Made by a program: the position numbers and the translations under genes. A stretch of DNA of 64,000 nucleotides from Emergencia timonensis (GTDB taxonomy: Bacteria > Bacillota > Clostridia > Peptostreptococcales > Anaerovoracaceae), in NCBI RefSeq assembly GCF_900086585.1, contig NZ_FLKM01000009.1, positions 1,364,001 through 1,428,000 of the forward strand, read 5' to 3'. The notes beneath the pieces are model-generated. The model was given only the letters and a program-made list of their open reading frames with translations, was not told the origin of the DNA and ran no database searches. Position 1 is the first letter of the stretch. Every line of letters begins with the position of its first letter. Positions 5,853 through 46,145 of the stretch are shown here, one piece after another.

Positions 5853-5933
5853 CTACCTTACTGCAAAGAAAGAGAGCGATGGATGATATATTTAAATGCA
5901 GTAGAATGAAATCGTTAATTGAGGGAGGACACG

Positions 5934-9450: not shown

Positions 9451-9474
9451 GAGGTCTGATTGAGGGAGAGCGCA

Positions 9475-11990: not shown

Positions 11991-12006
11991 AGGAAGGAGG
12001 TCATTT

Positions 12007-12993: not shown

Positions 12994-13016
12994 ATAAAAC
13001 AGGAAAGGAGCTGTCT

Positions 13017-13235
13017 ATGCCCCATATCAGTTTATCCCTTTATCCGGGAAGAAGCAGAGCAGAAATTGAAATGATGTGCCGCAATTTACAGCAATGCTTA
13101 GTACAAACGGCTGGCTGGAAACCCGACGATATATCCGTATCGGTGGAAGGAATCAGCGCAGAAGCGTTTGCAGCCAAGGTAAAAAGCAAAATGCAGAACG
13201 AAACAATCGTTATTTCATCAGATTATATTAGATAG
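13017..13235 (+). CDS. 4-oxalocrotonate tautomerase family small protein
   Basis: The 72-residue protein begins M-P-H-I-S, so after removal of Met it exposes the N-terminal Pro that is the catalytic base of this superfamily. Length, the alternating start strand and the middle S-V-S-V-E-G-I segment fit PptA-like tautomerases. ATG 13017 is preceded by GGAAAGGAG; a start further upstream at 12984 would bury Pro1 and overlap the preceding gene. Probably interconverts keto/enol or imine/enamine forms of an intermediate made by the neighbouring dehydratase or reductase (inference). Confidence 0.8.
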   Translation: MPHISLSLYPGRSRAEIEMMCRNLQQCLVQTAGWKPDDISVSVEGISAEAFAAKVKSKMQNETIVISSDYIR

Positions 13236-13245
13236 GAGATTCAAA

Positions 13246-14913
13246 ATGGATACTACAAGAAGCTATTGGAACGGAAAAAAAGCAGTTCACAGACGTACGA
13301 TGATGAAAGGAGCAGGATATTGCGATTGTGATATTAGAAATAAACCTCACATCGGCGTAGCCAACACCTTTATGGAAGGTTCGCCGGGAACAGCGCACCT
13401 GCGCACTCTGACAGAGAAGATCAAGCAGGGAATCTGGGAAGCCGGTGGAATTCCTGTGGAGTTCGGTGTACCTGCGACTTGTGGAAACGTAGCAAACGGA
13501 GCCCCTGAGCTGAAGTACGAACAGGCGGCAAGAGATATCGTAGCGGCTTCCATCGAATTTGTAGCCAAAGTCCACAATTTTGACGGTCTGGTTACTGTTG
13601 CATCTTGTGACAATATCATCGCGGGATGTTATCTGGCAATGGCCAGATTGGATTTACCTGCACTGTGCGTGACAGGCGGTTCCATGACAGCCGGCCTTTA
13701 CAAAGGAGAAAAGATGGTACAGGCACAGCTTGACGTCGCTGCCCTCAGCGTCGATGATGAAGAGGTCCTGAGTGAAATGGAAGAGTGCGTCTGCCCGTCC
13801 TTTGGTGCATGTCCTTCCATGGGAACTGCAAATACCATGCAGATGACAGGAGAAATTCTGAACCTGGTATGGCCGGGAACAGGAACCATTCCATCTATTG
13901 ACAATCTGAAGCTGAGAAAGTGCAGAGAAGCCGGCAGAGCCATTGTAAAGATGACCATCGAAGATCGCAAGCCTTCTGTTCTCATGACCAGGGAGACCTT
14001 CATGAACGCTATCGCATTCGCCATGGCCACTGCCGCATCGACGAATATCGTATTACACCTGATTGCCATTGCCAACGAGCTGGGCATCAAAATCACTTTA
14101 GACGACTTTGACCACTATGCAGATAAGATTCCTTGCATTACCGGGGTAATTCCAAGCGGCCCTTATACCGTAGTTGATTTCCACTACGCTGGCGGTCCAT
14201 TGACAGTAATGAAGATGATCGAAAAGGAAATCTACACAGACGTGCCGACCATGGATGGACGTACATGGAAAGACCTTCTTGCAAATATAGAGGCTAAGAG
14301 CTCAGATATTATCAGAACTCTTGATAACCCGCTGTTCGACGAACCGGGACTGAAGATCCTGAAAGGCAACTTATCACCGACAGGCTCCATCGTTCGTCCG
14401 ACAGGGGTTCCTGCTGAGATGAAGCAGTTTTCGGGCAAGGCGAAAGTATTCAGCAGTGACATGGAATCCTGGGACGCCATTGAGCGCGGAGAAATCAAAC
14501 CGGGAGACGTAATCGTCATCCGTTATGAAGGCTGCGTAGGCGCTCCAGGTATGACCGAACTCATGTCATCTACGGATGCTCTTCTTGCAAAGGGCCTAGA
14601 CAAGAGCGTAGGACTCATTTCCGATGCCAGATTCTCGGGCTTCAACTACGGCGCTATCGTCGGACATGTGACACCGGAAGCTGCAAAAGGCGGCTTGATT
14701 GCACTGATTGAAGAGGGGGATATCATTACTGTGGATACGGTGAAAGGTACCATCAACCTGGAAGTTCCGGAAGAAATCATCGCAGAACGCAGAAAGAACT
14801 GGGTCTGCCCTGAACCAAAGGTGAAAACCGGCCTGCTGGCAATCTATGCAGAAAACTGCAGACCTGCTGATGAAGGCGGAGCCATGCAGCCTTGGGACAT
14901 TGATTTTAAATAG
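13246..14913 (+). CDS. IlvD/Edd family dehydratase (not the biosynthetic IlvD)
   Basis: The 555-residue protein is homologous to dihydroxy-acid dehydratase but distinct from the biosynthetic copy at 32565-34235. The three Fe-S cysteines are kept at C79 (A-T-C-G-N), C121 (S-C-D-N) and C189 (G-A-C-P-S-M-G-T-A-N), but surrounding motifs differ: A-T-C-G-N-V-A-N-G replaces G-V-C-D-G-I-A-M-G. Family members dehydrate vicinal diols such as sugar acids or dihydroxy acids, using an iron-sulfur cluster. In this operon it may dehydrate a hydroxylated amino or keto acid. It is 10 bp behind the tautomerase. Annotating it as ilvD would mislead, since a complete ilvD exists. Confidence 0.88.
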   Translation: MDTTRSYWNGKKAVHRRTMMKGAGYCDCDIRNKPHIGVANTFMEGSPGTAHLRTLTEKIKQGIWEAGGIPVEFGVPATCGNVANGAPELKYEQAARDIVAASIEFVAKVHNFDGLVTVASCDNIIAGCYLAMARLDLPALCVTGGSMTAGLYKGEKMVQAQLDVAALSVDDEEVLSEMEECVCPSFGACPSMGTANTMQMTGEILNLVWPGTGTIPSIDNLKLRKCREAGRAIVKMTIEDRKPSVLMTRETFMNAIAFAMATAASTNIVLHLIAIANELGIKITLDDFDHYADKIPCITGVIPSGPYTVVDFHYAGGPLTVMKMIEKEIYTDVPTMDGRTWKDLLANIEAKSSDIIRTLDNPLFDEPGLKILKGNLSPTGSIVRPTGVPAEMKQFSGKAKVFSSDMESWDAIERGEIKPGDVIVIRYEGCVGAPGMTELMSSTDALLAKGLDKSVGLISDARFSGFNYGAIVGHVTPEAAKGGLIALIEEGDIITVDTVKGTINLEVPEEIIAERRKNWVCPEPKVKTGLLAIYAENCRPADEGGAMQPWDIDFK

Positions 14914-14948
14914 ACGCCGCAGATATTTTGATAATTTTGGAGGAAATC

Positions 14949-16151
14949 ATGGAAAACAATACAGGCAGAATACCTGAAAAACGTGAAAAAGAGTTTGGAA
15001 TAGGAACGTTTATCTTCCTGATCATATTAATTGGAGCCATCGCTTATATGGCTTCGGTCATGGGCATTGGACCTATGTTTAAGACTTTGCTGAATACAGC
15101 GTACAGTGTTCTGATTGAAACCGTTCTTTACATCTGCGCCATCTGCGTCATCATGGGTGCTGTTTCTGCCCTGCTGACTGAATTCGGAGTTGTTGGCCTG
15201 GCCCAATGGCTGATTAACCCGATCATGAAACCGCTGTACAACATGCCAGGCGCAGCTTCCTTGGGTATCGTAACCACCTTCCTTTCGGATAATCCGGCAA
15301 TACTGGCGTTATCGCAGGATGCGAAGACTCGCAAGTACTTTAAGAAATATCAGACGCCTGCCCTGTGCAACCTAGGTACGGCCTTCGGTATGGGTATGAT
15401 TGTCTGCACTTTCATGCTGGGCCTTGGAACGGAGTTCCTCCCGGCAGTGGCCGCAGGACTTGGCGGATGCGTCATAGGAAGTATCATATCGACAAGATTG
15501 ATGCAGTTCTTTACCAAGAGACACTATGTGAAAGAAGGCGTCTGGGAAGAAATGCTGGAAATGGAGGAGTTTGATTCTCCTGCAGAACCTACGGAGAACA
15601 CATCAAAGTCCGAAGAAGTCAAGAAAAAAGGTCTCTTCAGCAGAGTAATGGACTGTCTTCTTGAAGGCGGCAAGCTGGGGTGGCAGATCTGCTTCGCAAC
15701 GACACCGGGCGTTATCTGTATCTGCACATTGGTCATGATTTTGACCTTTGGTCCGGGAACAGGAGAAGACGGCGTAGCTGCGTATACGGGCGCTGCATAT
15801 GAGGGAATTGAAGTTCTCCCTAAGCTGGGGGATCTGATTTCACCGGTCACGAAAGTATTATTCGGCTTCCAGGATGGAAGCAATATCGTAGTTCCCATCA
15901 CTTCACTGGGTGCTGTAGGCGCAGCCATCGGCATGATTCCGCAGATGGTTACAAGCGGCCTCGTGGGAGCAAATGAAATCGCAGTATTTACTGCAATGGG
16001 TATGTGCTGGTCAGGTTATCTGAGCACACACGTTTCTATGATGGACGCCCTGGGCAGAAGAGAGTTGATTCCATCCGCTTTGATTTCTCACACCATCGCC
16101 GGACTATGCGCAGGCGTTTCCGCTCACTACATATTCCTTCTCGTAGGCTAG
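14949..16151 (+). CDS. Gate-domain (nucleoside-recognition) membrane transporter, CD0519/CD1768-like
   Basis: This is a ~400-residue protein with about nine membrane helices in two blocks separated by a charged cytoplasmic loop (about residues 200-232). The repeated helix pattern with S-D-N-P-A-I-L-A and D-G-S-N-I-V-V-P-I-T-S-L-G looks like the Gate/nucleoside-recognition fold, and overall it resembles the clostridial CD0519/CD1768 membrane family. It is probably the operon's substrate importer. ATG 14949 has TTGGAGGA upstream; the longer frame from 14928 lacks a site. The substrate is unknown; family assignment is from memory. Confidence 0.7.
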   Translation: MENNTGRIPEKREKEFGIGTFIFLIILIGAIAYMASVMGIGPMFKTLLNTAYSVLIETVLYICAICVIMGAVSALLTEFGVVGLAQWLINPIMKPLYNMPGAASLGIVTTFLSDNPAILALSQDAKTRKYFKKYQTPALCNLGTAFGMGMIVCTFMLGLGTEFLPAVAAGLGGCVIGSIISTRLMQFFTKRHYVKEGVWEEMLEMEEFDSPAEPTENTSKSEEVKKKGLFSRVMDCLLEGGKLGWQICFATTPGVICICTLVMILTFGPGTGEDGVAAYTGAAYEGIEVLPKLGDLISPVTKVLFGFQDGSNIVVPITSLGAVGAAIGMIPQMVTSGLVGANEIAVFTAMGMCWSGYLSTHVSMMDALGRRELIPSALISHTIAGLCAGVSAHYIFLLVG

Positions 16152-16201
16152 TCATGAGAAGAGAACGCAACGAAAGACACGAACATTAACAGGAGGCAGA
16201 A

Positions 16202-17389
16202 ATGAACGAATATTTAAGTTCCAAAATGGACGTCTTTTCAGGGGATAAAGGATTGTTTGCAATCTACGACATCTCGACAAAACTGGAAAGAAGCGGACAG
16301 AAAATTATACATATGGAGATCGGCAAACCTGACTTTGACACTCCTAAGGCCATTAAAAAGGCGGGAATTCAAGCCATTGAGGAAGGCGTTGTGCAGTATG
16401 CGCCTCCTGGCGGGATTTTCGAACTAAAAGAAGCCATTACCGATTGGACACAGAGAAAATACGGATTGGAGTACGATCCTGAAAGTGAACTGCTGATTAC
16501 GGTCGGCGCAAGTGAAGCGATTCATCTGGTTTGGAGCGGATTATTGGATCACGACGAAGAGGTGATGATTCCAAGTCCCTACTACGGTTCCTACGTATAT
16601 CAGGTGGTTTCTGCAGACGCAAAATACGTTGAGGTGCCAGTCTTAAAGGACGGAGATATCAGGTACGATATTGCCGAATTCGAAGCGAGAATTACAGATA
16701 AGACCAAAATATTGCTGATCAATTCTCCCAACAATCCGACCGGATATGTGATGAGCGATGAAGAGATGCAGGCAGTTGCTGACTTCGCCATAAAGCACGA
16801 CCTGATCGTGGTGTCAGACGAATGTTACGACCACTTCGTATTCGACGGTGAGTTCAAGAGCATTGCAACACTGCCGGGAATGAAAGAACGGACCCTGGTG
16901 GTCAATTCTACCTCGAAGACCTTCTCTATGACAGGATGGCGAGTCGGCTATATACTGGGTGATGCGGGCATTATCGGCACGCTGCAGAATATTCACGAGC
17001 ATCTGGCCATCTGTCCTACATCCTTTGCCCAGCAGGGCTCCATCGCGGCGTATAAACAGGAACTTCCGGAGACGAAGGTCATGGTGGACGAGTACAGGAA
17101 AAGAAGAGAGTACATTATCGGCGCTCTTGACAAAATTGAAAAGCTGTCCTTTTATGAACCGCAGGGCGCTTTCTATGTATTCATAGACGTCAGCAAAACG
17201 GGACAGAGCGGAGCTGACTTCTGTCTGGGTCTGCTGAACAAGAAAGGCGTTGCCACGGCTTCAGGAGAGTCCTTTGGAAAACAGTGGGTTGATTATATCA
17301 GAATCTCCTATTGCTGTTCCATGGACGATATCCAGAAAGCCATGGAGTTGATTCAAGAATATATAGACGAGATAGAGAAGCTACAGTAA
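16202..17389 (+). CDS. Class I/II PLP aminotransferase
   Basis: A 395-residue fold-type I aminotransferase of the AAT I-beta/gamma type: N-S-P-N-N-P-T-G-Y (around 178), the cofactor Asp/Tyr segment V-S-D-E-C-Y-D, PLP lysine in S-T-S-K-T-F-S-M-T-G-W-R-V-G-Y (around residue 238) and the substrate Arg near the end (I-R-I-S-Y). It lies 50 bp after the transporter with AGGAGG. It probably transaminates the amino acid or keto acid handled by the racemase operon and closes the pathway. No ilvE is seen elsewhere in the window, but context argues for a catabolic role. Confidence 0.9.
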   Translation: MNEYLSSKMDVFSGDKGLFAIYDISTKLERSGQKIIHMEIGKPDFDTPKAIKKAGIQAIEEGVVQYAPPGGIFELKEAITDWTQRKYGLEYDPESELLITVGASEAIHLVWSGLLDHDEEVMIPSPYYGSYVYQVVSADAKYVEVPVLKDGDIRYDIAEFEARITDKTKILLINSPNNPTGYVMSDEEMQAVADFAIKHDLIVVSDECYDHFVFDGEFKSIATLPGMKERTLVVNSTSKTFSMTGWRVGYILGDAGIIGTLQNIHEHLAICPTSFAQQGSIAAYKQELPETKVMVDEYRKRREYIIGALDKIEKLSFYEPQGAFYVFIDVSKTGQSGADFCLGLLNKKGVATASGESFGKQWVDYIRISYCCSMDDIQKAMELIQEYIDEIEKLQ

Positions 17390-17534: not shown

Positions 17535-17564
17535 AGAGTATCAAACATAGGAAGGTGAATGCAA

Positions 17565-18197
17565 ATGAATTTTACAGATATGAGCTGCAAAGAGTTTACA
17601 GAGGTTTTAGCGAGCAAAGCGCCTGTTCCCGGCGGCGGCGGCGCATCTGCCCTGGCAGGCGCTTTAGGTACTGCCTTGGGCAGTATGGTCGGCCAGTTGA
17701 CCTTGGGTAAGAAAAAGTATGCCGAGGTAGAGTCGGACATCAAAGTCTTGATGGAGAAGGCCTCTAAACTGCAGATGGAGCTTTTAACCCTGGTAGAAAA
17801 GGATGCAGAAGTATTTGAGCCTTTGTCAAAAGCCTACGGCATGCCCAAAGAAACCGAGGCGGAAAAAGCGAAGAAAGAGGGGGTCATGGCAGTGGTTCTG
17901 AGGGAGGCAGCAGAAGTGCCTCTGGAAATCATGCGCAAATGTTGTGAGGTCATCGACCTGCAGGCTGAATTTGCGGCGAAGGGCAGTCGTCTGGCCGTCA
18001 GTGATGCGGGAGTGGGCGTCATTTTCTGTAAGTCCGCATTACAGGGCGCCAGTCTCAACGTCTTTATCAATACGAAGTCCATGAAGGACCGGCAGTTAGC
18101 AGAGAAAATCAACAGTGAAGCAGATGAAATGCTCTGCGAATATACTGTGAAAGCAGATGAAGTTTTCGCCTCCGTATTCCACCAGCTGAGAAAATAG
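17565..18197 (+). CDS. fchA: Methenyltetrahydrofolate cyclohydrolase, FchA/cyclodeaminase family
   Basis: The 210-residue protein belongs to the formiminotransferase-cyclodeaminase C-terminal family, with P-V-P-G-G-G-G-A-S-A-L near residue 22 as the folate-binding glycine loop. In anaerobes with folate-dependent C1 metabolism, FchA converts methenyl-THF to 10-formyl-THF and back. AGGAAGG is 9 bases before ATG 17565; the ATG at 17559 is too close to it. folD follows after 16 bp, so both are one transcript. No formiminotransferase domain or histidine pathway gene is near, which favours the cyclohydrolase over formimino-THF cyclodeaminase. Confidence 0.85.
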   Translation: MNFTDMSCKEFTEVLASKAPVPGGGGASALAGALGTALGSMVGQLTLGKKKYAEVESDIKVLMEKASKLQMELLTLVEKDAEVFEPLSKAYGMPKETEAEKAKKEGVMAVVLREAAEVPLEIMRKCCEVIDLQAEFAAKGSRLAVSDAGVGVIFCKSALQGASLNVFINTKSMKDRQLAEKINSEADEMLCEYTVKADEVFASVFHQLRK

Positions 18198-18213: not shown

Positions 18214-19071
18214 ATGGAAAAAGTATTAAAAGGAAAAATCGTTGCAGATGCTATCAATCAAGGAATTTTGAACAGGATGCCGGCCCTGTATGAACGCGGG
18301 ATCGTACCGACACTTGCCATCGTCAGAGTTGGTGAAAATCCTAGTGATATCGCCTATGAAAATGGGGCGGTAAAGAAGGCGAAGACGCTGGGGCTTCAAC
18401 CAGAAAAGTTTATCTGTCCTGCCGATATCGATCAGAGAGATTTGATTGAAGTCATCAAAGCAATTAACAATGATGAGAAAATTCATGGAATTTTACTCCT
18501 GCAGCCGCTTCCCGAATCAATTGATGCAGACGCAGTCAGAAACACGCTTTGTCCGGAAAAAGATCTGGACTGTATTTCTGACGCTTCTCTCTCTCGCTTG
18601 TTTCTTGGCGAAACAACAGGTTTTGCTCCCTGCACGGCGGAAGCCTGCATCGAAATTCTCAAATATAATCATATTGAAATAAAAGGGAAAAAAATAGTGG
18701 TAATCGGCAGAAGCATGGTGATTGGAAAGCCAGTGGCCATGATGCTTCTTAAAGAGAACGCCACCATTACGATCTGCCATACGAAGACAGCAGAAGCAGA
18801 TTTGAAGGATCTCTGCCGGGGAGCGGATATCGTTATCGCGGCAGCGGGTCATGTCGGTACCCTGACGGCGGATATGGTCAGCCCTGGACAAGTAATCATC
18901 GATGTAGGGATTAACTTCAACGAAGAAGGTAAAATGCTGGGAGACGTAGATTTTGAGGCTGTCAGCAAGATTGCCGCTGCAGCTACGCCAGTTCCCGGCG
19001 GTGTAGGCAGCGTAACCACCACGCTTTTAATGAAACACCTGGTGGAGGCTGCTGAAAGAACAGTAAAATAA
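18214..19071 (+). CDS. folD: Methylenetetrahydrofolate dehydrogenase (FolD family)
   Basis: This 285-residue FolD oxidises methylene-THF with NAD(P)+. Visible are G-I-L-L-L-Q-P-L-P (around 88-96), D-x-D-C (118-121), the Rossmann loop G-R-S-M-V-I-G-K-P and the C-terminal T-P-V-P-G-G-V-G-x-V-T. In the region corresponding to Y-x-x-x-K of bifunctional FolD, the sequence is Y48-E-N-G-A52: the lysine needed for cyclohydrolase activity is replaced by Ala, with lysines only at 54-55. With a stand-alone FchA directly upstream, this copy is probably mainly a dehydrogenase. That is inference from the known role of the lysine. Confidence 0.92.
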   Translation: MEKVLKGKIVADAINQGILNRMPALYERGIVPTLAIVRVGENPSDIAYENGAVKKAKTLGLQPEKFICPADIDQRDLIEVIKAINNDEKIHGILLLQPLPESIDADAVRNTLCPEKDLDCISDASLSRLFLGETTGFAPCTAEACIEILKYNHIEIKGKKIVVIGRSMVIGKPVAMMLLKENATITICHTKTAEADLKDLCRGADIVIAAAGHVGTLTADMVSPGQVIIDVGINFNEEGKMLGDVDFEAVSKIAAAATPVPGGVGSVTTTLLMKHLVEAAERTVK

Positions 19072-36691: not shown

Positions 36692-36791
36692 TAATTGCAG
36701 GAGCACTTTTTTTGTGATAGACTAGAAATATAAATCTTATTCGATATTTTGCCTAATAACGAATTATAGACATGTTAAGAATGAGGCTGTC

Positions 36792-37994
36792 ATGACTGGA
36801 TATAGACCCCAAGGCAATCATAATGATATTAGAGAACAGAGGCTTTTAAGAGAAATGAAAGCCTTTGCTTATACTGCAAATGTTCCTGTTACGCTATATG
36901 ATAACAATATGAATATTTTATGGGAATGCCGGCCGGAACTTAAAATTTGCACCATGTTTCTGGCCCATGATATTCGAAACAATCAATGCAATGAGAACCT
37001 GAAGGATGCCATTGCAACAGCAGAAAGTCTCAACGAACCATATGTCTTCATGTGCGCATCCAGACTGACGCAAATTGCATATCCGGTGAAGATAGAAAAT
37101 TCTCTGAAGGGAACCATGATTGCAGGACCAATCATAATGGGAAAAAATCGAGAAAATGCTCTGAAACATATTTTTGAAAATCTGCCGGATTATAGGACTC
37201 ACATCAATGAGCTTCTCGAAATCATTGAAGCAAACCCGATCAGGACTACTTTGGAAGTTTCGTGCATCTATGAGGTGTTTTGTGATTGTATCTTCGCCCA
37301 TAATTTGATGGAGAACAGTCAGCCCTCAGGAGATGCGGCTATCGATGACCTGCTGCAGTCCCTTCAAAAGCGAGACTTGTCAAGTGCCGTGGCAGCGATG
37401 GATATTATCTTTCAACATGCCTATATCGCAAACGGGGGGAAATTAAATCTGATCAAAGTGTACCTGTCAGACTACATTGCTTCTTTACCAAAGCAGACGC
37501 TGCAAAATTATGTCTTTACAGAAGGTTATGAAACCCTGTTAAGTGAACTTAAGGGTGCGGCAACGGCCGAGAAAGTTCACGATATATGCAGGAAAATTGC
37601 CGCGTTTATGACAGATGATGACGATCGCCATCCGCAATACAAAGGATCGTCCCATGTCATTGAAGAGACGATTTTGTATCTGGAAGAACACTATGCAGAT
37701 GATATCGAGTTAAAAGGAATAGCAGATCAGGTTCATGTCAACACTTCCTATTTGTCTTCTCTATTCAAAAAAGAAACATCCATGACCTTTTCGCAGTACC
37801 TGAATATGATTAGATTGAATCAAAGTGTCAAATTATTGAAAACGACTGATCTGCCATTAGAACAGGTTGCAAAACGCTGTGGATTTGCCAGTCAGAGTTA
37901 CTACATCAGAGCTTTTAAACTGCATTATAAGGAAACGCCTGGTAAATATCGGCGGGATTTTAAGGATAAAAGTAAAAGGGAGAGGTTATTATGA
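36792..37994 (+). CDS. AraC family regulator with PocR-type sensory domain
   Basis: The 400-residue regulator has an N-terminal PocR-like ligand domain (about residues 20-150; cysteines in I-C-T-M-F, N-Q-C-N and F-M-C-A-S) and a C-terminal AraC double helix-turn-helix (about 295-392: I-A-D-Q-V-H-V-N-T-S-Y-L-S-S-L-F-K-K, then C-G-F-A-S-Q-S-Y-Y-I-R-A-F-K). PocR domains sense small hydrocarbon or amine ligands in known regulators. It overlaps the next regulator by 4 bp and precedes the methyltransferase operon, so it probably activates that operon in response to its substrate. Confidence 0.85.
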   Translation: MTGYRPQGNHNDIREQRLLREMKAFAYTANVPVTLYDNNMNILWECRPELKICTMFLAHDIRNNQCNENLKDAIATAESLNEPYVFMCASRLTQIAYPVKIENSLKGTMIAGPIIMGKNRENALKHIFENLPDYRTHINELLEIIEANPIRTTLEVSCIYEVFCDCIFAHNLMENSQPSGDAAIDDLLQSLQKRDLSSAVAAMDIIFQHAYIANGGKLNLIKVYLSDYIASLPKQTLQNYVFTEGYETLLSELKGAATAEKVHDICRKIAAFMTDDDDRHPQYKGSSHVIEETILYLEEHYADDIELKGIADQVHVNTSYLSSLFKKETSMTFSQYLNMIRLNQSVKLLKTTDLPLEQVAKRCGFASQSYYIRAFKLHYKETPGKYRRDFKDKSKRERLL

Positions 37995-39115
37995 TTTCAG
38001 CTAAGATCAAAAACAGTTTTTACGACGGGGTGCGAACCGTTATTTTTCACAAATCGGAACTTGTAGAAACGATTGCAAGCCTGCACAGCTTATATGCCGA
38101 AAAGAGTGAAAAACTTCACAGTTTAAAAAACCTGGAAGAGAAATTAGATAACCTGGATCCAGGTGTCAAATATAGCTTATGGAAGTACGGAGAAAGCTAT
38201 GCAGGATGGCTTCTGATCATGGATATCGCAACCTACATATCTTGTATGCATTACGAAGAGACTGGCGAGACCTATCTGACTTTTGAGGCGGCAATGAAAG
38301 AATACGACAAGATCGATCTGGTCACTTACTTGAATATCTTCCTGGGCATGCCGGCTTTGGGATACGAACGCAGTGATGCGGTTCGATGGCTTGAAAACCC
38401 AGATACGATGTCATCAAAAGATATCAAGACAATAGGACAATACATCGCCCAGAAAGACGTGAGGATATTTATTAAAAATATAAAAGAATTGAAGGACGAT
38501 TTGCGAGATTTGCTGACAATCTATTGGAACGATGTTTTTCAGTCTGTTTGGCGTGACATAGAACTGAGCCTGGATAAGACAATCGATTCTGCAAATTACG
38601 AATGCGGCCTTTTGGGCGATGTAACGCAATATATCGCCAATGTACACAGCAGCATAAAGGTATCGAAAGGAACAATCTTTATTCAAAAGGATGTTCCCTA
38701 TATGATAGACTTGGATCATGTGAAAAAAGTTCATGTTTTCCCATCCACCTTTTCAGGAGAAGAGTTACTGATAGACACCTTTGACGAATCGCTGGTGATT
38801 TACTATAATTTGAATTTAATGGATTCGAAATATGTAGGGCAGCAGGGGAAGGAACTATGCAAAATATTCAAGGCTCTGGGTGATGATACGAGACTGAAAA
38901 TAGCAAAGATATTGTGGGGAGCGCCTGCAACCACTCAATATCTGGCGGGAATGCTGGGAATGGCGCCAAGTACCGTGTCTACACATCTCAAAGTGATGAA
39001 GGCGGCAGGACTATTAACAAATAAGGCGATCAAAAAGTTCGTTTATTATGAAGTCAATCAAGAAGCCTTAGTGCAGTTAGGGGAGCAGCTAGTTCGTTAT
39101 TTCAAGGAATCGTAA
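37991..39115 (+). CDS. ArsR-type winged-helix regulator with large N-terminal domain
   Basis: The 374-residue protein has a ~280-residue N-terminal region with no metal-site pattern that I recognise (DUF5937-like at best) and a C-terminal ArsR winged helix (about 285-370: I-F-K-A-L-G-D-D-T-R-L-K-I-A-K-I-L, then S-T-V-S-T-H-L-K-V-M-K-A-A-G-L-L). ATG overlaps the AraC stop (ATGA), so the two regulators are made together. A strong terminator follows, and the methyltransferase operon starts at its own promoter. The palindrome inside that promoter could be this protein's binding site (inference). Confidence 0.78.
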   Translation: MISAKIKNSFYDGVRTVIFHKSELVETIASLHSLYAEKSEKLHSLKNLEEKLDNLDPGVKYSLWKYGESYAGWLLIMDIATYISCMHYEETGETYLTFEAAMKEYDKIDLVTYLNIFLGMPALGYERSDAVRWLENPDTMSSKDIKTIGQYIAQKDVRIFIKNIKELKDDLRDLLTIYWNDVFQSVWRDIELSLDKTIDSANYECGLLGDVTQYIANVHSSIKVSKGTIFIQKDVPYMIDLDHVKKVHVFPSTFSGEELLIDTFDESLVIYYNLNLMDSKYVGQQGKELCKIFKALGDDTRLKIAKILWGAPATTQYLAGMLGMAPSTVSTHLKVMKAAGLLTNKAIKKFVYYEVNQEALVQLGEQLVRYFKES

Positions 39116-39131
39116 AAATTAGTATAGGACA

Positions 39132-39180
39132 AAAATAAGTGCAATTTAACGTCTGAAATGGCTTAAATTGCACTTATTTT
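39132..39180. terminator. Terminator after the regulator pair
   Basis: AAAATAAGTGCAATTTAA and TTAAATTGCACTTATTTT pair perfectly over 18 bp with a 13-base loop and A/T-rich flanks. Confidence 0.9.
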
Positions 39181-39262
39181 ATGTGCAGGTGAGAGACTAT
39201 CAGGCTGCATAAATATAGATAGAGTGAAATTGTGAAAATATTTCGGCAAATCTGATATCGCG

Positions 39263-39291
39263 TTGACTTTGTACTGCCAAAGTGGTAGAAT
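39263..39291 (+). promoter_or_regulatory. Promoter with internal operator for the methyltransferase operon
   Basis: TTGACT (39263-39268), 17-bp spacer, TAGAAT (39286-39291). A perfect inverted repeat ACTTTG-TACTGC-CAAAGT (39266-39283) overlaps the -35 and fills the spacer, the classical place for a repressor. Confidence 0.75.
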
Positions 39292-39305
39292 ATTCACAAC
39301 TTAAA

Positions 39306-39333
39306 GATTCGATGATTCAAAAAATGTCGAATC
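39306..39333. promoter_or_regulatory. Inverted repeat in leader of methyltransferase operon
   Basis: GATTCGA (39306-39312) and TCGAATC (39327-39333) are perfect inverted repeats with a 14-bp spacer, just after the expected transcription start. It may be a second operator or a leader hairpin. Confidence 0.5.
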
Positions 39334-39370
39334 AAAAAATGGAAGTTAAAATAACAAAGGAGGCACACTT

Positions 39371-40822
39371 ATGATAAAGTTTGATGCAGACAGTGCCATA
39401 GGCAGGTTTGAAAGATGGAGTGACGAGGAAAAACAGATGATACATAAAACCTCAATCAAGATTCTTTCGGAAATAGGTATGCATGTATTCCATCAGGAGG
39501 CCAGAAGTCTTCTTCAGGATGCTGGCGCTGTAGTTGATGGAAATTTAGTAAAGGTTCCGGAACGTATGGTAGATGAGGCGCTGAGAAGTGCCCCATCAAA
39601 GTATTCTATCTATAACGTCGATGGATCAGAGGCGTTCTGCCTTGCACCCAATGTGGTCACCTTCGGAACAGGAACGGATATGCCGGAATTTATTGACCTA
39701 TATTCAGGTGAGATCAGGCCAGGCAGGCTGGAGGACTGTGAAAACGCTGCAAAGATTGCTGAGCATTGTAAATCCATAGACTGGCTGGCTCCCTATGCTC
39801 TGGCTAATGATAAAAATCCAAGGACAGCAGATGTACACCATTATAAAGCCATGCGCAAGTATTGCAGCAAACCAATCCTCACTCTGGCTACAGATCCTTA
39901 TAGTCTGCAGGGCATTATCGATATGGCGGCGGCCCAGGCCGGAGGTTATGAACAATTAAAGGCGAAACCGACATTTGTGCACTACGCGGAACCGATTTCC
40001 CCTTTGCAGCATTCTGAGGAGTCTTTGGGAAAATTGCTTCTCTGTGCGGAGTACGGCATCCCAGTTACTTATACGGCAGGTATCACCGCAGGTGCTACCG
40101 GTCCCGTGACGCTGGCAGGCACTTTGGCAGTGGGCAGTGCGGAGTGTCTGATGGGGCTGGTGATTCACCAGCTGAAAGCGCCGGGGGCGCCATTCATGTA
40201 TGGAATAGAAGCTTCCATCATGGATATGAAAACCACAGTATGCATGTACGGCGGACCAGAGTACGGGCTCATGAATTCCTTTGTTGGTGAAATGGGCAGA
40301 TTTTATCAGTTACCGACTTTCGGCATTTCCGGCGCTACGGACGCAAACCAGATCGATTTTCAGATGGGCGCGGAAATGATCTACAGCATGATGACCGCCA
40401 TTTACGGCAGACAAAACTTTGTCCATGACAACGGCTATATGGGAATCGGCCAAATGGGCTGTCTGCAATCGATTCTTGCGGCCAATGAGTTACTGACTTT
40501 TGCGAAGCGTTATGCGCAGGATATAGAGATTACAGAGGAAAGCATCGGTTACGATCTGATTAAGAAAATCGGTATCGGCGGCAATTATCTGCAGACAAAG
40601 GAAACCGCGAGAAAGTTCAGAAAGGAATTCTATTTACCAGAATTTCTCAACCGCAAAAGAAATGTGGCGTGGATTGCAGACGGCTGTCCGAATATTCCTG
40701 ATCAGTTGACGGCCAAAGCAAAAGAAATCATCGAAGGGGATGTACCGACTTTTATTTCGGACGAATTAGAGGCAAAATTTGACGCCATCATAGAAGAACA
40801 CGAATCATATTATTTCACTTAA
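39371..40822 (+). CDS. MttB-family (trimethylamine methyltransferase-like) protein 1, non-pyrrolysine
   Basis: The 483-residue protein has the MttB superfamily TIM-barrel pattern (F-G-T-G-T-D-M-P, Y-C-S-K-P-I-L-T, A-E-P-I-S-P-L, L-L-C-A-E-Y-G-I-P, A-G-A-T-G-P-V-T-L). The frame is continuous with no internal TAG, so it is not the pyrrolysine-containing trimethylamine enzyme. Non-Pyl relatives (MtgB, MtpB, MtcB) move a methyl group from quaternary amines such as glycine betaine, proline betaine or carnitine to a corrinoid protein. A corrinoid protein is encoded two genes downstream. Substrate unknown. Confidence 0.9.
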   Translation: MIKFDADSAIGRFERWSDEEKQMIHKTSIKILSEIGMHVFHQEARSLLQDAGAVVDGNLVKVPERMVDEALRSAPSKYSIYNVDGSEAFCLAPNVVTFGTGTDMPEFIDLYSGEIRPGRLEDCENAAKIAEHCKSIDWLAPYALANDKNPRTADVHHYKAMRKYCSKPILTLATDPYSLQGIIDMAAAQAGGYEQLKAKPTFVHYAEPISPLQHSEESLGKLLLCAEYGIPVTYTAGITAGATGPVTLAGTLAVGSAECLMGLVIHQLKAPGAPFMYGIEASIMDMKTTVCMYGGPEYGLMNSFVGEMGRFYQLPTFGISGATDANQIDFQMGAEMIYSMMTAIYGRQNFVHDNGYMGIGQMGCLQSILAANELLTFAKRYAQDIEITEESIGYDLIKKIGIGGNYLQTKETARKFRKEFYLPEFLNRKRNVAWIADGCPNIPDQLTAKAKEIIEGDVPTFISDELEAKFDAIIEEHESYYFT

Positions 40823-40868
40823 CCACAAATAAAAAAATAGATTTCACACACGAAAGGAGATTGAAAAT

Positions 40869-42332
40869 ATGTATGTAAATCAAACGGGAAATTTCACTCA
40901 CGATTTTAAGATGTGTTCTTATGAACAGCTGACACGTCTTCACAATGCAAGCTTAGAGGTGCTGGAGCGGACAGGAGTGAAAATTTATGAAGAAACTGCG
41001 CTGAAAATTCTGGCAGAAGGCGGCGCCTATGTGGACTTTGATGAAAAGGTGGTCAGAATACCGGCGGCTATGGTAAAAGCGGCCATCCAATCTGCACCAT
41101 CCAGAATCGTCGTTGCAAATCCACAAGGCAAGAGAAGCCTGTTCCTGGAAAGAAACAATGTGTATTTTGGAACCGGCACAGATCTTCCTACTCATATGGA
41201 TCCATATACAAAGGAAGTCAGGCCGACGATGCTGAAAGACGTAGAAAACATTGCAAAAGTGGTGGACAAAGCAGATAATTTTGCTTATGTATCAAACCAG
41301 GGGCTGGCCCAGGATATCCCGCAGCATCTTCACGACATGATTACTCTGAAAACCATGAGAACCTACTGCAGTAAACCGAATCTCTGCACGGCGACGGACA
41401 AAGGGAATTTAATGGCTTTGATCGACATGTGTGCTGAGATGGCAGGCGGTTACGATGAGCTGAGACGGAATCCGACATTGATGCTTTACAATGAGCCGGT
41501 TTCCCCGTTGATGAACAGTGAGGAGGCAATCCAGAAGCTGATGCTCTGTGCCGAGTATGGGATCCCGACGACTTATGCATCAGGCGGTGTGTCGGGGGGA
41601 ACCTCTCCCGTTACATTATCCGGCTCCATCGTATGCAGTAATGCAGAGTGCTTAGCCGGCTTAGTCCTCCATCAGTTAGTCAAGAAAGGCGCTCCATTTA
41701 TTTACGGTTACATCTTCGGAGCCATGGATATGATGACCACCATGAATGTTTACGGCGGACCGGAACTGGGCATGGTGCACGCTGTAATGGCGGATCTGGC
41801 AAAATATTATGATCTGCCTGTATATGGGACATCAGGCTGTACCGACGCCCTGGAGGTTGACGCTCAGGCCGGTACAGAGGCAATGTACAGCATCATGTGC
41901 GCGGCACTTTCTGGAGAAAATCTGGTTCACGACAATGCCTATACCGGAGTCGGCGCCATCGGAAATCTGTCCATGATTCTATTGGTGGATGAACAGATCA
42001 GTTTTGCAAAGCGATTCGTTCAGGGAATCAACTATGATGAAGAGTCCCTCGCCATTGACCTGATCGACAAGGTGAGCTACGGCGGCGCCTATGTATCACA
42101 GAAGCATACGGCAAAGAACTTCAGAAATGAGGTATTCTACCCTAAGTTCTTCAACCGAAAACAGTATCTGGCATGGGAAAGCGAAGGCGGCCTCAGCCTG
42201 AACGAGAAGTTGGACAATGCAGTAAAGACGATCATTGAGGAAGAGGAGTACAGTTATATCGACGAGCGTACTGCCAAAGTCTTTGACGAAATCATCAAAG
42301 ACAGAGCGAAAGAGTTGGCGATCGAGTATTAA
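40869..42332 (+). CDS. MttB-family methyltransferase-like protein 2, non-pyrrolysine
   Basis: This 487-residue paralogue of the preceding gene shares its barrel motifs (F-G-T-G-T-D-L-P, Y-C-S-K-P-N-L, N-E-P-V-S-P-L, L-M-C-A-E-Y-G-I-P, G-G-T-S-P-V-T-L) but is roughly half identical by eye and differs in the substrate-side loops (Q-G-L-A-Q-D against Y-A-L-A-N-D). It too lacks an internal amber codon. Two unlike copies in one operon suggest two successive demethylations, two substrates or a heteromer. It lies 46 bp after copy 1 with AAGGAGA, and the corrinoid protein follows after 13 bp. Confidence 0.9.
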   Translation: MYVNQTGNFTHDFKMCSYEQLTRLHNASLEVLERTGVKIYEETALKILAEGGAYVDFDEKVVRIPAAMVKAAIQSAPSRIVVANPQGKRSLFLERNNVYFGTGTDLPTHMDPYTKEVRPTMLKDVENIAKVVDKADNFAYVSNQGLAQDIPQHLHDMITLKTMRTYCSKPNLCTATDKGNLMALIDMCAEMAGGYDELRRNPTLMLYNEPVSPLMNSEEAIQKLMLCAEYGIPTTYASGGVSGGTSPVTLSGSIVCSNAECLAGLVLHQLVKKGAPFIYGYIFGAMDMMTTMNVYGGPELGMVHAVMADLAKYYDLPVYGTSGCTDALEVDAQAGTEAMYSIMCAALSGENLVHDNAYTGVGAIGNLSMILLVDEQISFAKRFVQGINYDEESLAIDLIDKVSYGGAYVSQKHTAKNFRNEVFYPKFFNRKQYLAWESEGGLSLNEKLDNAVKTIIEEEEYSYIDERTAKVFDEIIKDRAKELAIEY

Positions 42333-42345
42333 AAGGAGGAGACAA

Positions 42346-42972
42346 ATGTTATTAGAAAAGATTGGAAACGCAGTTTTAGAGGGCGATGATGAGGTTGTTT
42401 GTGAATTGGTAGAAAAGGCGTTGGCAGAAGGTACAAAGCCGCTGGATGTCTTGGAACAGGGCCTGGTACCGGGAATGGACGAGGTCGGAAAACTGTTTAA
42501 GACTGGAGAGATGTTTGTACCGGAAGTATTGATGGCTGCAAATGCCATGCAGGCGGGAAATGATATTCTGAAGCCGCTCATGGTTGGCGAAACCCGAGAA
42601 ATGAAAGGAAAAATCATCATAGGCACAGTAAAAGGCGACTTGCATGACATCGGAAAGAAGATTGTGGGCATGATGTTGGAAGGCGCAGGGTATGAGGTGA
42701 TCGACCTTGGAATCGATGTCACCCCAGAAAGATTCCTGGGCGCGCTCGACGAGACCCAGGCTGACTGTGTAGGAATGTCCGCCATGCTGACCACGACGAT
42801 GACAGTGATGGATGAAGTAGCTGCGGCAATAAAGGCTGATCCTAAGTATGCTGATGTGAAGATCATGATCGGAGGAGCACCTGTCACAGCGGACTTTGGA
42901 GAAAAAATCGGCGCAAAATTCTCCTATGATGCAGCTTCTGCTGTAGACCTGGCCAACGAATTGATGGCGTAA
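42346..42972 (+). CDS. Methyltransferase cognate corrinoid protein
   Basis: The 208-residue protein has a helical cap domain (residues 1-85, with F-x-P-E-V-L-M-A-A-N-A-M) and a B12-binding Rossmann domain with D-L-H-D-I-G (98-103; His100 is the lower cobalt ligand), then G-M-S-A-M-L-T-T-T and G-G-A-P-V-T. It matches the MtbC/MtqC group that carries methyl groups between an MttB-type enzyme and a THF- or CoM-linked methyltransferase. The start ATG 42346 has AAAGGAGGAG; a longer frame upstream overlaps gene 2 and is not real. The acceptor methyltransferase and the corrinoid-activating ATPase are not in this window. Confidence 0.93.
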   Translation: MLLEKIGNAVLEGDDEVVCELVEKALAEGTKPLDVLEQGLVPGMDEVGKLFKTGEMFVPEVLMAANAMQAGNDILKPLMVGETREMKGKIIIGTVKGDLHDIGKKIVGMMLEGAGYEVIDLGIDVTPERFLGALDETQADCVGMSAMLTTTMTVMDEVAAAIKADPKYADVKIMIGGAPVTADFGEKIGAKFSYDAASAVDLANELMA

Positions 42973-42993
42973 ATTGGAAGGGAAGCGAAAAAA

Positions 42994-44607
42994 ATGAGTA
43001 AAGAATGGACTCCAAAAGAATTACTGCTGGATCTGGTTTCGGTACAAAGTGATACATACACTACCTTGGAAATAGATATGGCAAAACATATCCTGGAAGT
43101 CATCAAAGGACAGGACTATTGGGAAGAGCATCCCGATTGCTGCGGACTTTACGACGGGAATGACCGGATGGGGCGTCTCATTCCCTGGGCGCTTCGAAAA
43201 GGAACATCCAACAGGTGTCTGGTTCTCTCAGGTCACTTTGACTGCGTCGAAATCGATTGCTATGATACGCTGAAAGAATTTGCATTGAGGCCAGATGAGC
43301 TGAAAGAAAGAATGAAGACCATGGAATGGAGCGATCCTGATGTGGTGAAGGATCTGCATTCAGAGGACTGGCTGTTCGGAAGAGGGACAGCTGATATGAA
43401 GGGTGGTACCGCCGTCATGCTCTGCCAGCTGTTCGAGGTCGCTGCAAAGCACATCAATCCAGAACTGAATCTTCTTTATGTGGGCATCCATGACGAAGAA
43501 ACTGCAGCGGAAGGAATCTTCCAGAGTGTCGGATTGTTCACGGAACTGAAGAAAAAATATGGCTTTGACTACAAGCTTCTCGTCAACGGAGAACCGACGT
43601 CCAAAGACAGCCCGGATAAATACACTTATTATGACGGATCCATCGGCAAAGGACTTCCTTTCGTCGTCATTAAAAGTAAGCTGGTTCATGTAGGAAATCT
43701 GATGCAGGGTCTAAATGGATCGCTGATTGCAGCAAATATCGTCAGACGTATTGAATTGAACACAGATCTTTGTAGTGAAGATTACGGCCAGAAATGTGTG
43801 CCGCCGACAGTGCTTTATATGAAGGACAATAAAAAGTTCTATAACGTTTCGGTTCCCCTCTATACGAATTTGTATCTGAATACTCTATTTACAAATTCCA
43901 ATAACGCGTTGAAAATTCTCGACTCCATTGATCAAATCTGCCGGGAATCGGCAGCAGAAGCGGTGGAGATCTACAACAAGGCATACACCTTTATGGAGCC
44001 GAACCATCCGAACCCCAATCACAATGTGCGTGTGATGTCTCTGGCAGACCTGCAGGCGTATAACCAGGCAAATGTAGAAAACTACGAAGAAGAGAAGGCT
44101 GCTTTTGTCAAGAGGCAAATCGAAATCGTCAACAGAGGAGACTCTCTTACCCAGCTGGCGACGGGCTTCGATATCGTGCAATGGGAAATTCAACAGTCCA
44201 AGATTACAGATCCGATGATTGTTTACGGTCTGATGGCGCCTTATGTGCCGGCAGTAAATAATCACGCCTTTCAAGATTTTGACAGAGAGGGCACCATCAA
44301 TATTGTTCAGGGCGAATTGAAGAAATATGGAATTACCGTTGAGGTAGTACCTTATTTCATGGGACTTTCTGACAACAGCTACATATCATGCGTGGATCCG
44401 ACTGAGGACCTGGAGGCCCTAAAGAGCATGGTCACGCCGAAAGAGGTTTACGATATCCCGCTGAAAGAGGCGGAATATATCGCACTCCCGTCCATTATCT
44501 GCGGACCGTGGGGCAAAGATTATCACACAATTACAGAGAGGGTTTATCTTCCTGACTTGGAAATTCATACACCGGCGGTAATGAGAAGATTAATCGAGTC
44601 GTTTTAA
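42994..44607 (+). CDS. RocB-like M20 family hydrolase
   Basis: The 537-residue protein is of the M20 metallopeptidase superfamily, RocB-like subgroup by length and pattern: S-G-H-F-D-C-V-E (His81, Asp83), G-R-G-T-A-D-M-K-G-G (Asp134), H-D-E-E-T (Glu168/169). Metal and base residues are in place, so it is probably active on an amide or peptide bond. Inside a methyltransferase operon it could release an N-methylated amine or betaine from an amide or peptide, or trim the demethylated product. This combination is not one I know from the described glycine betaine, proline betaine or carnitine systems. Confidence 0.82.
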   Translation: MSKEWTPKELLLDLVSVQSDTYTTLEIDMAKHILEVIKGQDYWEEHPDCCGLYDGNDRMGRLIPWALRKGTSNRCLVLSGHFDCVEIDCYDTLKEFALRPDELKERMKTMEWSDPDVVKDLHSEDWLFGRGTADMKGGTAVMLCQLFEVAAKHINPELNLLYVGIHDEETAAEGIFQSVGLFTELKKKYGFDYKLLVNGEPTSKDSPDKYTYYDGSIGKGLPFVVIKSKLVHVGNLMQGLNGSLIAANIVRRIELNTDLCSEDYGQKCVPPTVLYMKDNKKFYNVSVPLYTNLYLNTLFTNSNNALKILDSIDQICRESAAEAVEIYNKAYTFMEPNHPNPNHNVRVMSLADLQAYNQANVENYEEEKAAFVKRQIEIVNRGDSLTQLATGFDIVQWEIQQSKITDPMIVYGLMAPYVPAVNNHAFQDFDREGTINIVQGELKKYGITVEVVPYFMGLSDNSYISCVDPTEDLEALKSMVTPKEVYDIPLKEAEYIALPSIICGPWGKDYHTITERVYLPDLEIHTPAVMRRLIESF

Positions 44608-44633
44608 CCTTAAATAAGGAGGAGGAAAACGCA

Positions 44634-45734
44634 ATGGATACGAATCAACCAAGAGTAAGTTTGAAAAATGTAATAAAAATTGCCGGAGTATGGATTTCCT
44701 ACTGTATTGGATCCGGATTTGCAACAGGGCAGGATATGATGCAATACTTTGTCGCCTATGGCATGAAGGGCTTCATCGGAATCCTGATCGGTATTGCGAT
44801 TCACATTTATGTGACCACGTCCTACATGTCGCTGGGGAAAACCATGCAGTTTGAAAATCCCATGGGTGTTTTCGATTACTTCTGCGGAAAATACCTGGGC
44901 AAGCTGGTGGCAGCGCTGACAGTGGTTTATGCCCTGTTTGCACCATCTGTCATGATTTCAGGCTTTGGCGCCACCATCAATCAGCTGACGGGATTTCCCA
45001 TGGTTGCAGGAAGCATCATCATGGGTACGATCGTAACTTTGACGGTTATGCTCGGCCTGCACCGCATAGCTGACATCATCGGAACCATAGGGCCGTTATT
45101 AATTATCGTATCGTTATTAACTGGCGGAATCTATCTGATTGGCAATTGGGAGAAGCTGAAAGCCGGTGCATTGGCGGCAGAGGACATGGATTTGTTAAGT
45201 ATTGGAGATAACTGGTTCATGGGCGGTGTGTATTTTGCAACTTGGGCGCCTCTGATGGCGGCACCATTTCTGACGACGACAGCCAAGACCATCGATACGA
45301 AAAAAGAAGGCATTACCGGAATGATTGTAGGAAATGTAGGTTATATGTTTGCAGTTTTCATCATGGTAGCAGCATTCTTATGTGATATCGAAGGTGTTTC
45401 AAAGGTCCTTGTACCGACACTATATCTGGCGCAGCAGATGTCGCCATTCCTCACGGTGCTTTTTATCGGCGTCATCATCCTTGGAATTTACTCCTCTGCA
45501 GTACCGGGCATGTTCACCTTTGTGGCAACCTTTGCAAAGGAAAAGACGAAGCGGTATATGATGATCTCCATTGGAACAGGAATCTTTGTTACCATCGTAA
45601 CTATGCTGATTCCATTTGATTTCCTGACCAATTACATGTTTACGGTCTACGGCGCATTGGGATTGCCGTTTATCTTCCTGATCGCGTTTGCACAGATCAG
45701 AACGAAACTGGCGAAAAATAAAGTGATGAAATAA
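44634..45734 (+). CDS. YkvI-like APC-type membrane transporter
   Basis: The 366-residue membrane protein has ten to eleven helices. The start (G-V-W-I-S-Y-C-I-G-S-G-F-A-T-G-Q-D-M-M-Q-Y-F) carries the unwound first-helix glycine motif of the LeuT/APC fold and matches the YkvI/COG3949 group. Substrates of that group are poorly known. As the last gene of the methyltransferase operon, it is the likely importer of the methylated substrate. AAGGAGGAGG precedes the ATG and a terminator-like hairpin follows. Confidence 0.8.
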   Translation: MDTNQPRVSLKNVIKIAGVWISYCIGSGFATGQDMMQYFVAYGMKGFIGILIGIAIHIYVTTSYMSLGKTMQFENPMGVFDYFCGKYLGKLVAALTVVYALFAPSVMISGFGATINQLTGFPMVAGSIIMGTIVTLTVMLGLHRIADIIGTIGPLLIIVSLLTGGIYLIGNWEKLKAGALAAEDMDLLSIGDNWFMGGVYFATWAPLMAAPFLTTTAKTIDTKKEGITGMIVGNVGYMFAVFIMVAAFLCDIEGVSKVLVPTLYLAQQMSPFLTVLFIGVIILGIYSSAVPGMFTFVATFAKEKTKRYMMISIGTGIFVTIVTMLIPFDFLTNYMFTVYGALGLPFIFLIAFAQIRTKLAKNKVMK

Positions 45735-45750
45735 TGTATCTGTTTCTTAC

Positions 45751-45781
45751 AAAGGGGCTTGCCTGTATAGGCGGCCCCTTT
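45751..45781 (+). terminator. Terminator of the methyltransferase operon
   Basis: AAAGGGGC(TT)GCCT and AGGC(G)GCCCCTTT form a GC-rich stem; the T tract is weak (TGTAGTTTT). Confidence 0.7.
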
Positions 45782-46145
45782 GTAGTTTTAAACTTTGGGA
45801 GGAATAGGACATATAGGGTATGGGGGTATGCTAAAGGAACTTTTTACAATGCGGTTATGCTTTTTGAGGTGTATCTCAAGGACTCTGCGTAACTCTTTGT
45901 CAGTTATTGGAGTCATTCTGCCGAAAACCTGCACGAAATTCCGCGAATGTTAGTAAAAATATTACATTTGATTACTTTTCCAGAGGCTCTGACATAAAGC
46001 AGGTAGATAAATCGGTATAATTTAGTTACCCAGATAAGATATACCCCCTCATTTTCCTGTCAGGAAATGCTCCGGTTACGCGAAATTAGCCGCAAGGGTC
46101 CAAAAAGCGTAACTTTATCGTAAAGAGCTTCATTAATAGTTCTAT
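45782..46145 (+). other. Intergenic stretch without supported gene
   Basis: About 360 bp. There are two hairpin-capable parts near the right end: CATT(T)TCCTG/CAGGAAATG (about 46051-46070) and GTTACGC/GCGTAAC (about 46075-46112, long loop). A TATAAT at 46017-46022 lacks a good -35. It matches no riboswitch consensus that I can recall. A 41-codon minus frame is not supported. Confidence 0.4.

Follow-up and report, generated by a model that had tools for sequence, protein, structure and literature searches.

What is the purpose of an operon of Emergencia timonensis in which genes for two MttB-family methyltransferases and one corrinoid protein are followed by genes for an M20 metallohydrolase and a YkvI-like membrane protein? 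The operon lies in a stretch of 64,000 nucleotides (the window), positions 1,364,001 to 1,428,000 of contig NZ_FLKM01000009.1 (C9:1364001-1428000 in our numbering), which is part of a 4.66-Mb genome (G000) with a completeness of 96%; G, C and L numbers are our labels for genomes, contigs and loci. We favour, with a probability of roughly 0.55, the reading that the operon is inducible and serves the catabolism of a small, N-methylated compound resembling an amino acid, with the M20 protein as a lineage-specific hydrolysis step. The basis of this reading is the observed gene order, the protein families, the clade of the MttB proteins, a conserved core at related loci and a candidate operator.

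In the route that we infer from these observations, the substrate would be a betaine or an N-methyl amino acid imported by the YkvI-like protein. MttB1 and MttB2 would take methyl groups off this compound, or off two forms of it that arise one after the other, and load them onto the cobalt of the corrinoid protein that they share. The M20 protein would hydrolyse an amide bond, either of the compound as it is taken up or of what is left after demethylation. An ArsR-type protein with a probable DUF5937 domain (DUF5937-ArsR) would bind a 26-bp palindrome and repress both promoters, while an AraC-type protein with a PocR domain (PocR-AraC) probably activates. Discharge of the methyl-corrinoid would fall to the product of a gene outside the operon, most likely an MtaA-like methyltransferase or a MetH-type fusion protein.

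The operon and its two MttB proteins

All seven genes described between 36792 and 45734 in an earlier sequence-only reading of this DNA are intact open reading frames, at or close to where that reading had placed them (Table 1). Its proposal that the two MttB genes form one operon with the corrinoid, M20 and YkvI-like genes holds: the five genes are a tight co-directional unit (39371-45734) with intergenic gaps of 13-46 nt, closed by a terminator-like hairpin. The two regulator genes had been placed at the head of this operon. They do lie in front of it, but given their 4-nt overlap and the separate hairpin behind them, we read them as a transcription unit of their own. Neither hairpin was picked up by a simple terminator scan, which gave no excess of sites (6 found versus 8.5), and the consensus scan for promoters returned 29 promoter-like sites in the region versus 21.3 (s.d. 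4.4) in shuffles.

MttB1 and MttB2 are matched by PF06253 over nearly their whole lengths, contain no in-frame TAG codon and are 43% identical to each other, in agreement with their description as two unlike non-pyrrolysine MttB proteins. From their family they are predicted to be methyltransferases that move a methyl group from an amine to a Co(I)-corrinoid. The column that holds pyrrolysine in other members contains Cys in MttB2 and Ala in MttB1; two of the ten PF06253 matches in the genome have TAG there. In two trees, of 59 and 57 rows, both proteins fall with a paralogue from contig C8 and with proteins of G1023 and G860 into a clade of five with a support of 100/100, in which MttB1 has the longest branch each time. 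(Six of 65 sequences were dropped from the first tree, namely four frames, L082, L087, L089 and L112, that were too long, TAG-read or very distant, and two copies duplicating the window MttBs; three of the 43 Eubacterium limosum-like readings were dropped from the second, as a partial duplicate, cut by the region edge or very divergent.) The long branch, together with Ala where MttB2 has Cys, suggests that MttB1 may handle a different substrate or methylation state than MttB2.

The E. limosum-like proteins in the second tree are those of G1097. This genome has 42 PF06253 matches, the number of MttB proteins published for E. limosum (PMC8604678), and for this reason we take it to be E. limosum. 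All but one of the 42 are at most 36.6% identical to the window MttBs; the remaining one fails to align over 300 residues. The closest (L246:7765-9267, beside a BCCT transporter gene) shares 36.6% of its residues with MttB1 and 35.3% with MttB2; identity falls to 34% for the protein after it and to about 30% or less for the rest. In the 57-row tree 36 of the 40 placed E. limosum-like MttBs make up another clade, and none of the 40 falls into that of the window proteins. The phylogeny, in which neither window protein groups with MtgB, pyrrolysine MttB or the main E. limosum-like clade, puts the two in an uncharacterised MttB clade, outside all placeable MttBs of known substrate, and in this respect the proposed corrinoid-dependent demethylation operon is supported.

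Two MttBs of known substrate, MtcB and MtyB, are described as 53% identical, each with an MFS transporter gene beside it and with a divergent gene for a RocR-like regulator (PMC8604678). L239 and L241 of G1097, inside the large clade of 36, are likely this pair, since they are 52.7% identical and have MFS transporters and sigma-54 regulators. The same source calls MtcB and MtyB the most similar MttB pair of the E. limosum genome; that pairs in G1097 reach 83% identity, and that others also lie near 53%, counts against the naming. MtpB and MthB should also be among the 42.

Twenty of 341 genomes of the class gave a match to MttB1 (at most four scored in each), the best outside the own genome being 36-37% identical. 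MttB2 had matches in 45 of 247 genomes of the family, with 69% identity in G860 and 53% in G1023, and relatives in 193 plasmid records, with 28-29% identity among the matches listed.

Elsewhere in the genome, L104:7866-9365 encodes a divergent member of the MttB family (branch 1.52), next to a gene of the Na+/H+ antiporter family, and C8:1937000-1960600 (L104, L165, L169) holds genes for a pyrrolysine MttB, Dimeth_Pyl, PocR-AraC, a corrinoid protein, an MtaA-like protein and a corrinoid activator in one region. A role for MttB as a halomethane enzyme was considered and dropped, as CdmB belongs to the UroD superfamily (PMC13222342).

Table 1. Features of the window discussed in the text (positions are those of the window)
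Feature	Position	Strand	Basis or remark
Candidate operator 1, ATTCG-N16-CGAAT	36739-36764	.	Exact 26-bp site ahead of the regulator unit
PocR-domain AraC-type regulator	36792-37994	+	PF10114 (PocR) E 9.6e-15; HTH_AraC
DUF5937-ArsR type regulator, N-terminal ~280 residues and ArsR helix-turn-helix (HTH)	37991-39115	+	HTH_5 match in the window copy
Hairpin after the regulator unit	39129-39184	+	-25 kcal/mol, z -7.3, 0/200 shuffles as stable
Promoter-like site, TTGACT-17-TAGAAT with TG	39263-39291	+	Consensus scan only
Candidate operator 2, ATTCG-N16-CGAAT	39307-39332	.	Exact 26-bp site ahead of mttB1
MttB1, non-pyrrolysine MttB-family methyltransferase, diverged	39371-40822	+	PF06253 E 1.4e-81
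MttB2, non-pyrrolysine MttB-family methyltransferase	40869-42332	+	PF06253 E 4.6e-86
Corrinoid protein, DxHxxG motif GDLHDIGK	42346-42972	+	PF02607 and PF02310; start corrected by eye
M20 metallohydrolase, RocB-like	42994-44607	+	PF01546 E 1.9e-11
YkvI-like membrane protein, probable amino-acid-type importer	44634-45734	+	No family model
Terminator-like hairpin after the operon, then TTTT	45747-45785	+	-26.9 kcal/mol, z -4.9, 0/200 shuffles as stable
fhs	4134-5810		Presence confirmed
fchA	17559-18197		Presence confirmed
folD	18214-19071		Presence confirmed

The window also holds the three genes fhs, fchA and folD that had been reported from it. Just ahead of fchA and folD, 10986-17389 carries genes for proline-racemase-like, ornithine-cyclodeaminase-like and ilvD-like dehydratase proteins, a CD0519/CD1768 membrane protein and an aminotransferase. 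Two PucR-type regulator genes (5919-7148 and 9460-10698), 2.3 kb apart and encoding proteins that are 86% identical, are a probable duplication.

Conserved core, regulators and candidate operator

Three sister loci, in G860 (L128), in G1023 (L129) and on contig C8 of the own genome (L101), each combine genes for a DUF5937-ArsR regulator, one MttB of the clade (52-69% identical to MttB2) and a corrinoid protein within about 3 kb of each other. Their transporters are of the SNF/NSS type in L128 and of the SSF type in L101 and L129; NSS, SSF and YkvI-like transporters suit small zwitterions or amino acids. The corrinoid protein of the window is matched by the MtgC and TIGR02370 models, in both cases below the cut-off.

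The ArsR-type regulator had been credited with an unusual 280-residue N-terminal domain. This domain is probably not new, as PF19361 (DUF5937) matches six of seven aligned family members (best E 1.2e-17), though not the window copy (no match at E <= 1), whose N-terminal part we provisionally assign to DUF5937 through these relatives. A PDB profile search with the protein returned ArsR-type and other HTH regulators. Nor is the protein unique: full-length relatives occur in five of the 247 family genomes, with seven copies including the two of the own genome. Four of the seven adjoin an MttB cassette: that of the window and those of L128 (269 nt upstream of mttB), L101 (divergent, at about 160 nt) and L129 (about 3 kb off, at the far end of the cassette). 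The three other copies (L162:8336-9520, L163:8642-9733 and L164:3364-4455) adjoin a gene of the ornithine-cyclodeaminase (OCD/mu-crystallin) family, with a Gate-domain transporter gene also beside the regulator in L162 and L164; no MttB was found near them within the stretch fetched. Given copies that adjoin either MttB cassettes or OCD-family genes, the DUF5937-ArsR family seems to have a general role at amino-acid-like catabolic loci. Other MttB loci have PocR-AraC genes as well, in the pyrrolysine cluster on C8 and at two loci of G1097.

The exact palindrome ATTCG-N16-CGAAT, 26 bp long, occurs twice in the 64 kb of the window, once ahead of each transcription unit, versus an expectation of 0.17; two copies were reached in one of 100 shuffles. 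The same palindrome lies at L128:9880-9905, in another genus, between the genes for DUF5937-ArsR and the MttB2 orthologue. It is a candidate operator.

The hydrolase, the importer and the rival readings

The M20 protein carries the motifs HFD (H81, D83), D134, HDEE (E168, E169), GEP (E200) and DYH (H511), the residues of which we take to be metal ligands and all of which are kept in a Sedimentibacter homologue (42% identical). The name RocB is likewise our assumption; RocB is thought to act on arginine-related compounds. A PDB profile search returned distant DapE/ArgE-type chains. Matches to the M20 protein were found in 83 of 398 genomes of the phylum and 77 of 148 of the order (the own genome included), the best besides the window copy being 34-36% identical. 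A scan of genome contigs gave only Sedimentibacter acidaminivorans (41%), where the gene stands directly behind an argH-like gene (L070, named by sight) with no MttB in the 21.6 kb of that locus. An agcS-type amino acid carrier gene adjoins M20 relatives at seven of 60 loci (three of the seven confirmed by model), and a paralogue in the own genome stands beside an arginine-deiminase-family gene, with a carbon-nitrogen hydrolase gene nearby. Relatives also occur in 81 plasmid records (best 34.6%), in one of which, a Fusobacteria plasmid, the gene lies by that of a sodium:alanine symporter. Six plasmid contexts were opened, one without annotation, and the telling ones were this and that of Peptoclostridium acidaminophilum described below. 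The neighbouring amino acid carriers, the symporter and the arginine-deiminase-family gene point to amino-acid derivatives as M20 substrates.

Several findings weigh against the reading of an inducible operon with a hydrolysis step. The M20 protein and a second MttB are absent from all three sister loci (17.5-19.9 kb fetched for each), and none of the 60 other M20 loci (mostly with flanks of about 1.5 kb, some with less) has a YkvI-like, MttB or corrinoid match, so that the link between the M20 protein and demethylation comes from one genome. No substrate is on record for any member of the MttB clade. AlphaFold models of the M20 protein and DUF5937-ArsR were too poor to use, with predicted local distance difference test (pLDDT) scores of 33.2 (two sequences) and 39.9 (single sequence), respectively. 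The half-site of the candidate operator was picked after the palindrome in the window had been inspected; with free spacing of 10-26 nt (3 found versus 2.1 expected) or with one mismatch (4 versus 2.9) the palindrome is not rare in the window, the 26-bp site is absent ahead of mttB in L101 and L129, loci with more diverged regulators, and a further exact match in L162 lies about 8 kb away from the regulator gene there. Lastly, the 96%-complete genome gave no match for a stand-alone corrinoid:tetrahydrofolate (THF) methyltransferase (PF00809, MtqA type) and none for MtrH.

The sister loci bear most directly on the hydrolase. The sequence-only reading had named a lack of conservation of the M20 and transporter genes with the MttB genes as an outcome that speaks against its proposal, and all three loci have another transporter and no M20. 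Because of this, and because a second MttB is missing from them too, we read the M20 protein, the YkvI-like protein and MttB1 as additions, seen so far in this genome only. Cleavage of an amide- or peptide-linked substrate, to which the M20 protein alone points, is possible as a step specific to this lineage, given its absence from the sister loci. The same absence favours a rival, somewhat unlikely in our view, in which the M20 protein is a passenger: a recent arrival that handles another, arginine-related amino-acid derivative, which enters through this or a different transporter, while demethylation needs the MttB and corrinoid proteins only. The argH-like and arginine-deiminase-family neighbours of its relatives fit such a passenger, but the gene sits inside a tight operon, between the corrinoid and transporter genes, on the same strand and with gaps of 21 and 26 nt to them, and its catalytic motifs are intact.

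The transporter bears on the class of substrate. The YkvI-like protein has eight hydrophobic segments in a hydropathy scan and no Pfam or NCBIfam match at E <= 0.001 (a PHROGs match, E 0.049, is at chance level); as no family model matches, the name YkvI is our assumption. Relatives with 21.8-31.2% identity occur in ten plasmid records, in three of which the context was viewed. On a megaplasmid of P. acidaminophilum the gene of a 31%-identical relative (L252:7998-9113, annotated as a hypothetical protein) stands directly behind grdG-grdF, which encode sarcosine reductase; the other two contexts hold an aspartate aminotransferase family gene (Enterococcus) and nothing telling (Pseudomonas). By analogy with this one context, import of an N-methyl amino acid by the YkvI-like protein is suggested. 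The product of L252:7998-9113 is itself a candidate sarcosine importer.

This context also enters a second rival, in which the substrates are tertiary or secondary N-methyl amino acids of the dimethylglycine or sarcosine type in place of quaternary amines, and the two MttBs act in series. In MtgB, Y94, N199, R309 and H345 are proposed to hold glycine betaine (PMC6855144). H345 is kept in the window clade, with Thr, Glu and Tyr or Phe at the other three positions; the changes at N199 and R309, like the standing of MttB1 as a long-branch paralogue, would suit such substrates. The Glu/aromatic pattern is, however, common to a wider group beyond the clade, and the telling YkvI context is the only one among the three viewed from ten records. 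To our knowledge, moreover, the substrates assigned to non-pyrrolysine MttBs are quaternary amines, and demethylation of tri-, di- and monomethylamine depends on pyrrolysine enzymes. We regard this rival as improbable. A bolder version of events, in which the M20 protein unmasks an amide-masked N-methyl amino acid, after which a first methyl group is removed by MttB2 and a further one by MttB1, all without pyrrolysine, would be a long shot.

On the favoured reading of a catabolic operon the methyl group still needs an acceptor. Demethylation had been proposed to feed the THF pool, which is not supported as stated: PF00809 matches only FolP and a 794-residue MetH-type fusion with homocysteine, pterin and corrinoid modules. 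The same model does pick up an MthA/MtqA-type protein in G1097 (E 1.1e-19), so it would probably not have missed a stand-alone gene here. In its pterin module the fusion scores above the cut-off of a methyl-THF:corrinoid methyltransferase domain model, and through this module methyl transfer to THF could take place. Among four UroD-family matches in the genome, the three scanned had methylcobalamin:coenzyme M or MtaA/CmuA models as their best, all below curated cut-offs, and two of these three are encoded no more than about 5 kb from other MttB genes. With only the fusion and the MtaA-like proteins found and no dedicated methyltransferase, THF is an assumption. The search for missing partners was successful for a corrinoid activator only, encoded at C8:1959816, near another MttB cluster and outside the window operon (a RACo_C_ter match in a 605-residue protein closest to AcsV, below the AcsV cut-off). 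A route in which the methyl groups pass through the MetH-type fusion to methionine synthesis, or to THF, without a dedicated catabolic methyltransferase has in its favour that the fusion is the sole PF00809 match besides FolP, that its pterin module passes the cut-off and that betaine demethylation is linked to methionine synthesis in marine bacteria (PMC12478193), but the presence of two regulators and a putative importer looks like catabolism and MtaA-like proteins exist near other MttB loci, and we consider this route very doubtful.

Significance and comparison with known MttB systems

MttB-family enzymes can divert methylated amines from the formation of trimethylamine in the gut, and most members are without an assigned substrate (PMC8604678). 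The present clade, outside the 40 placed of 42 E. limosum-like MttBs, comes with several handles on its substrate, namely a candidate operator, a family of regulators and importers of three interchangeable types. Should the M20 protein act on the substrate, preparatory enzymes would be of two kinds, the authors in the field reporting one, MthK (PMC12155760). If the serial unmasking scheme were true, preparation of an MttB substrate would be hydrolytic, not phosphorylating, and a tertiary or secondary amine would be demethylated without pyrrolysine. In the openly licensed PMC literature searched we found no account of an MttB paired with a peptidase, none of RocB as an M20 deacetylase, and for DUF5937 a single paper, on the severity of salmonellosis; within that literature a hydrolase as preparer of an MttB substrate, a link seen in one genome, would be new.

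Demethylation by MttB and corrinoid proteins, and the sharing of one corrinoid protein by several MttBs, are already known; what the operon would add to this are the hydrolase and the target compound. The MtgB-MtgC system of Desulfitobacterium (PDB entries 2QNE and 9YCE) likewise pairs a non-pyrrolysine MttB with a corrinoid protein, but MtgB is only 28-29% identical to the window MttBs, falls in a separate clade and differs from them at three of the four proposed glycine betaine residues. Pyrrolysine MttB (PDB entry 7XCL) shows a family likeness by PDB sequence match and stands in the same half of the 57-row tree, whereas the window proteins lack TAG and have Cys or Ala in the Pyl334 column. 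With the MtpB, MtcB and MtyB systems of E. limosum, in which several MttBs share one corrinoid protein (PMC8604678), the operon has in common that multiple MttBs go with one such protein. Closest in logic is the MthB-MthK choline system, in which the kinase MthK prepares the compound, as phosphocholine, before the MttB acts, in what its authors describe as the first such case, and whose cluster carries its own gene for a THF methyltransferase, MthA (PMC12155760). There, too, a companion enzyme alters the compound before demethylation, but that enzyme is a kinase, whereas the one encoded in the window operon is a hydrolase.

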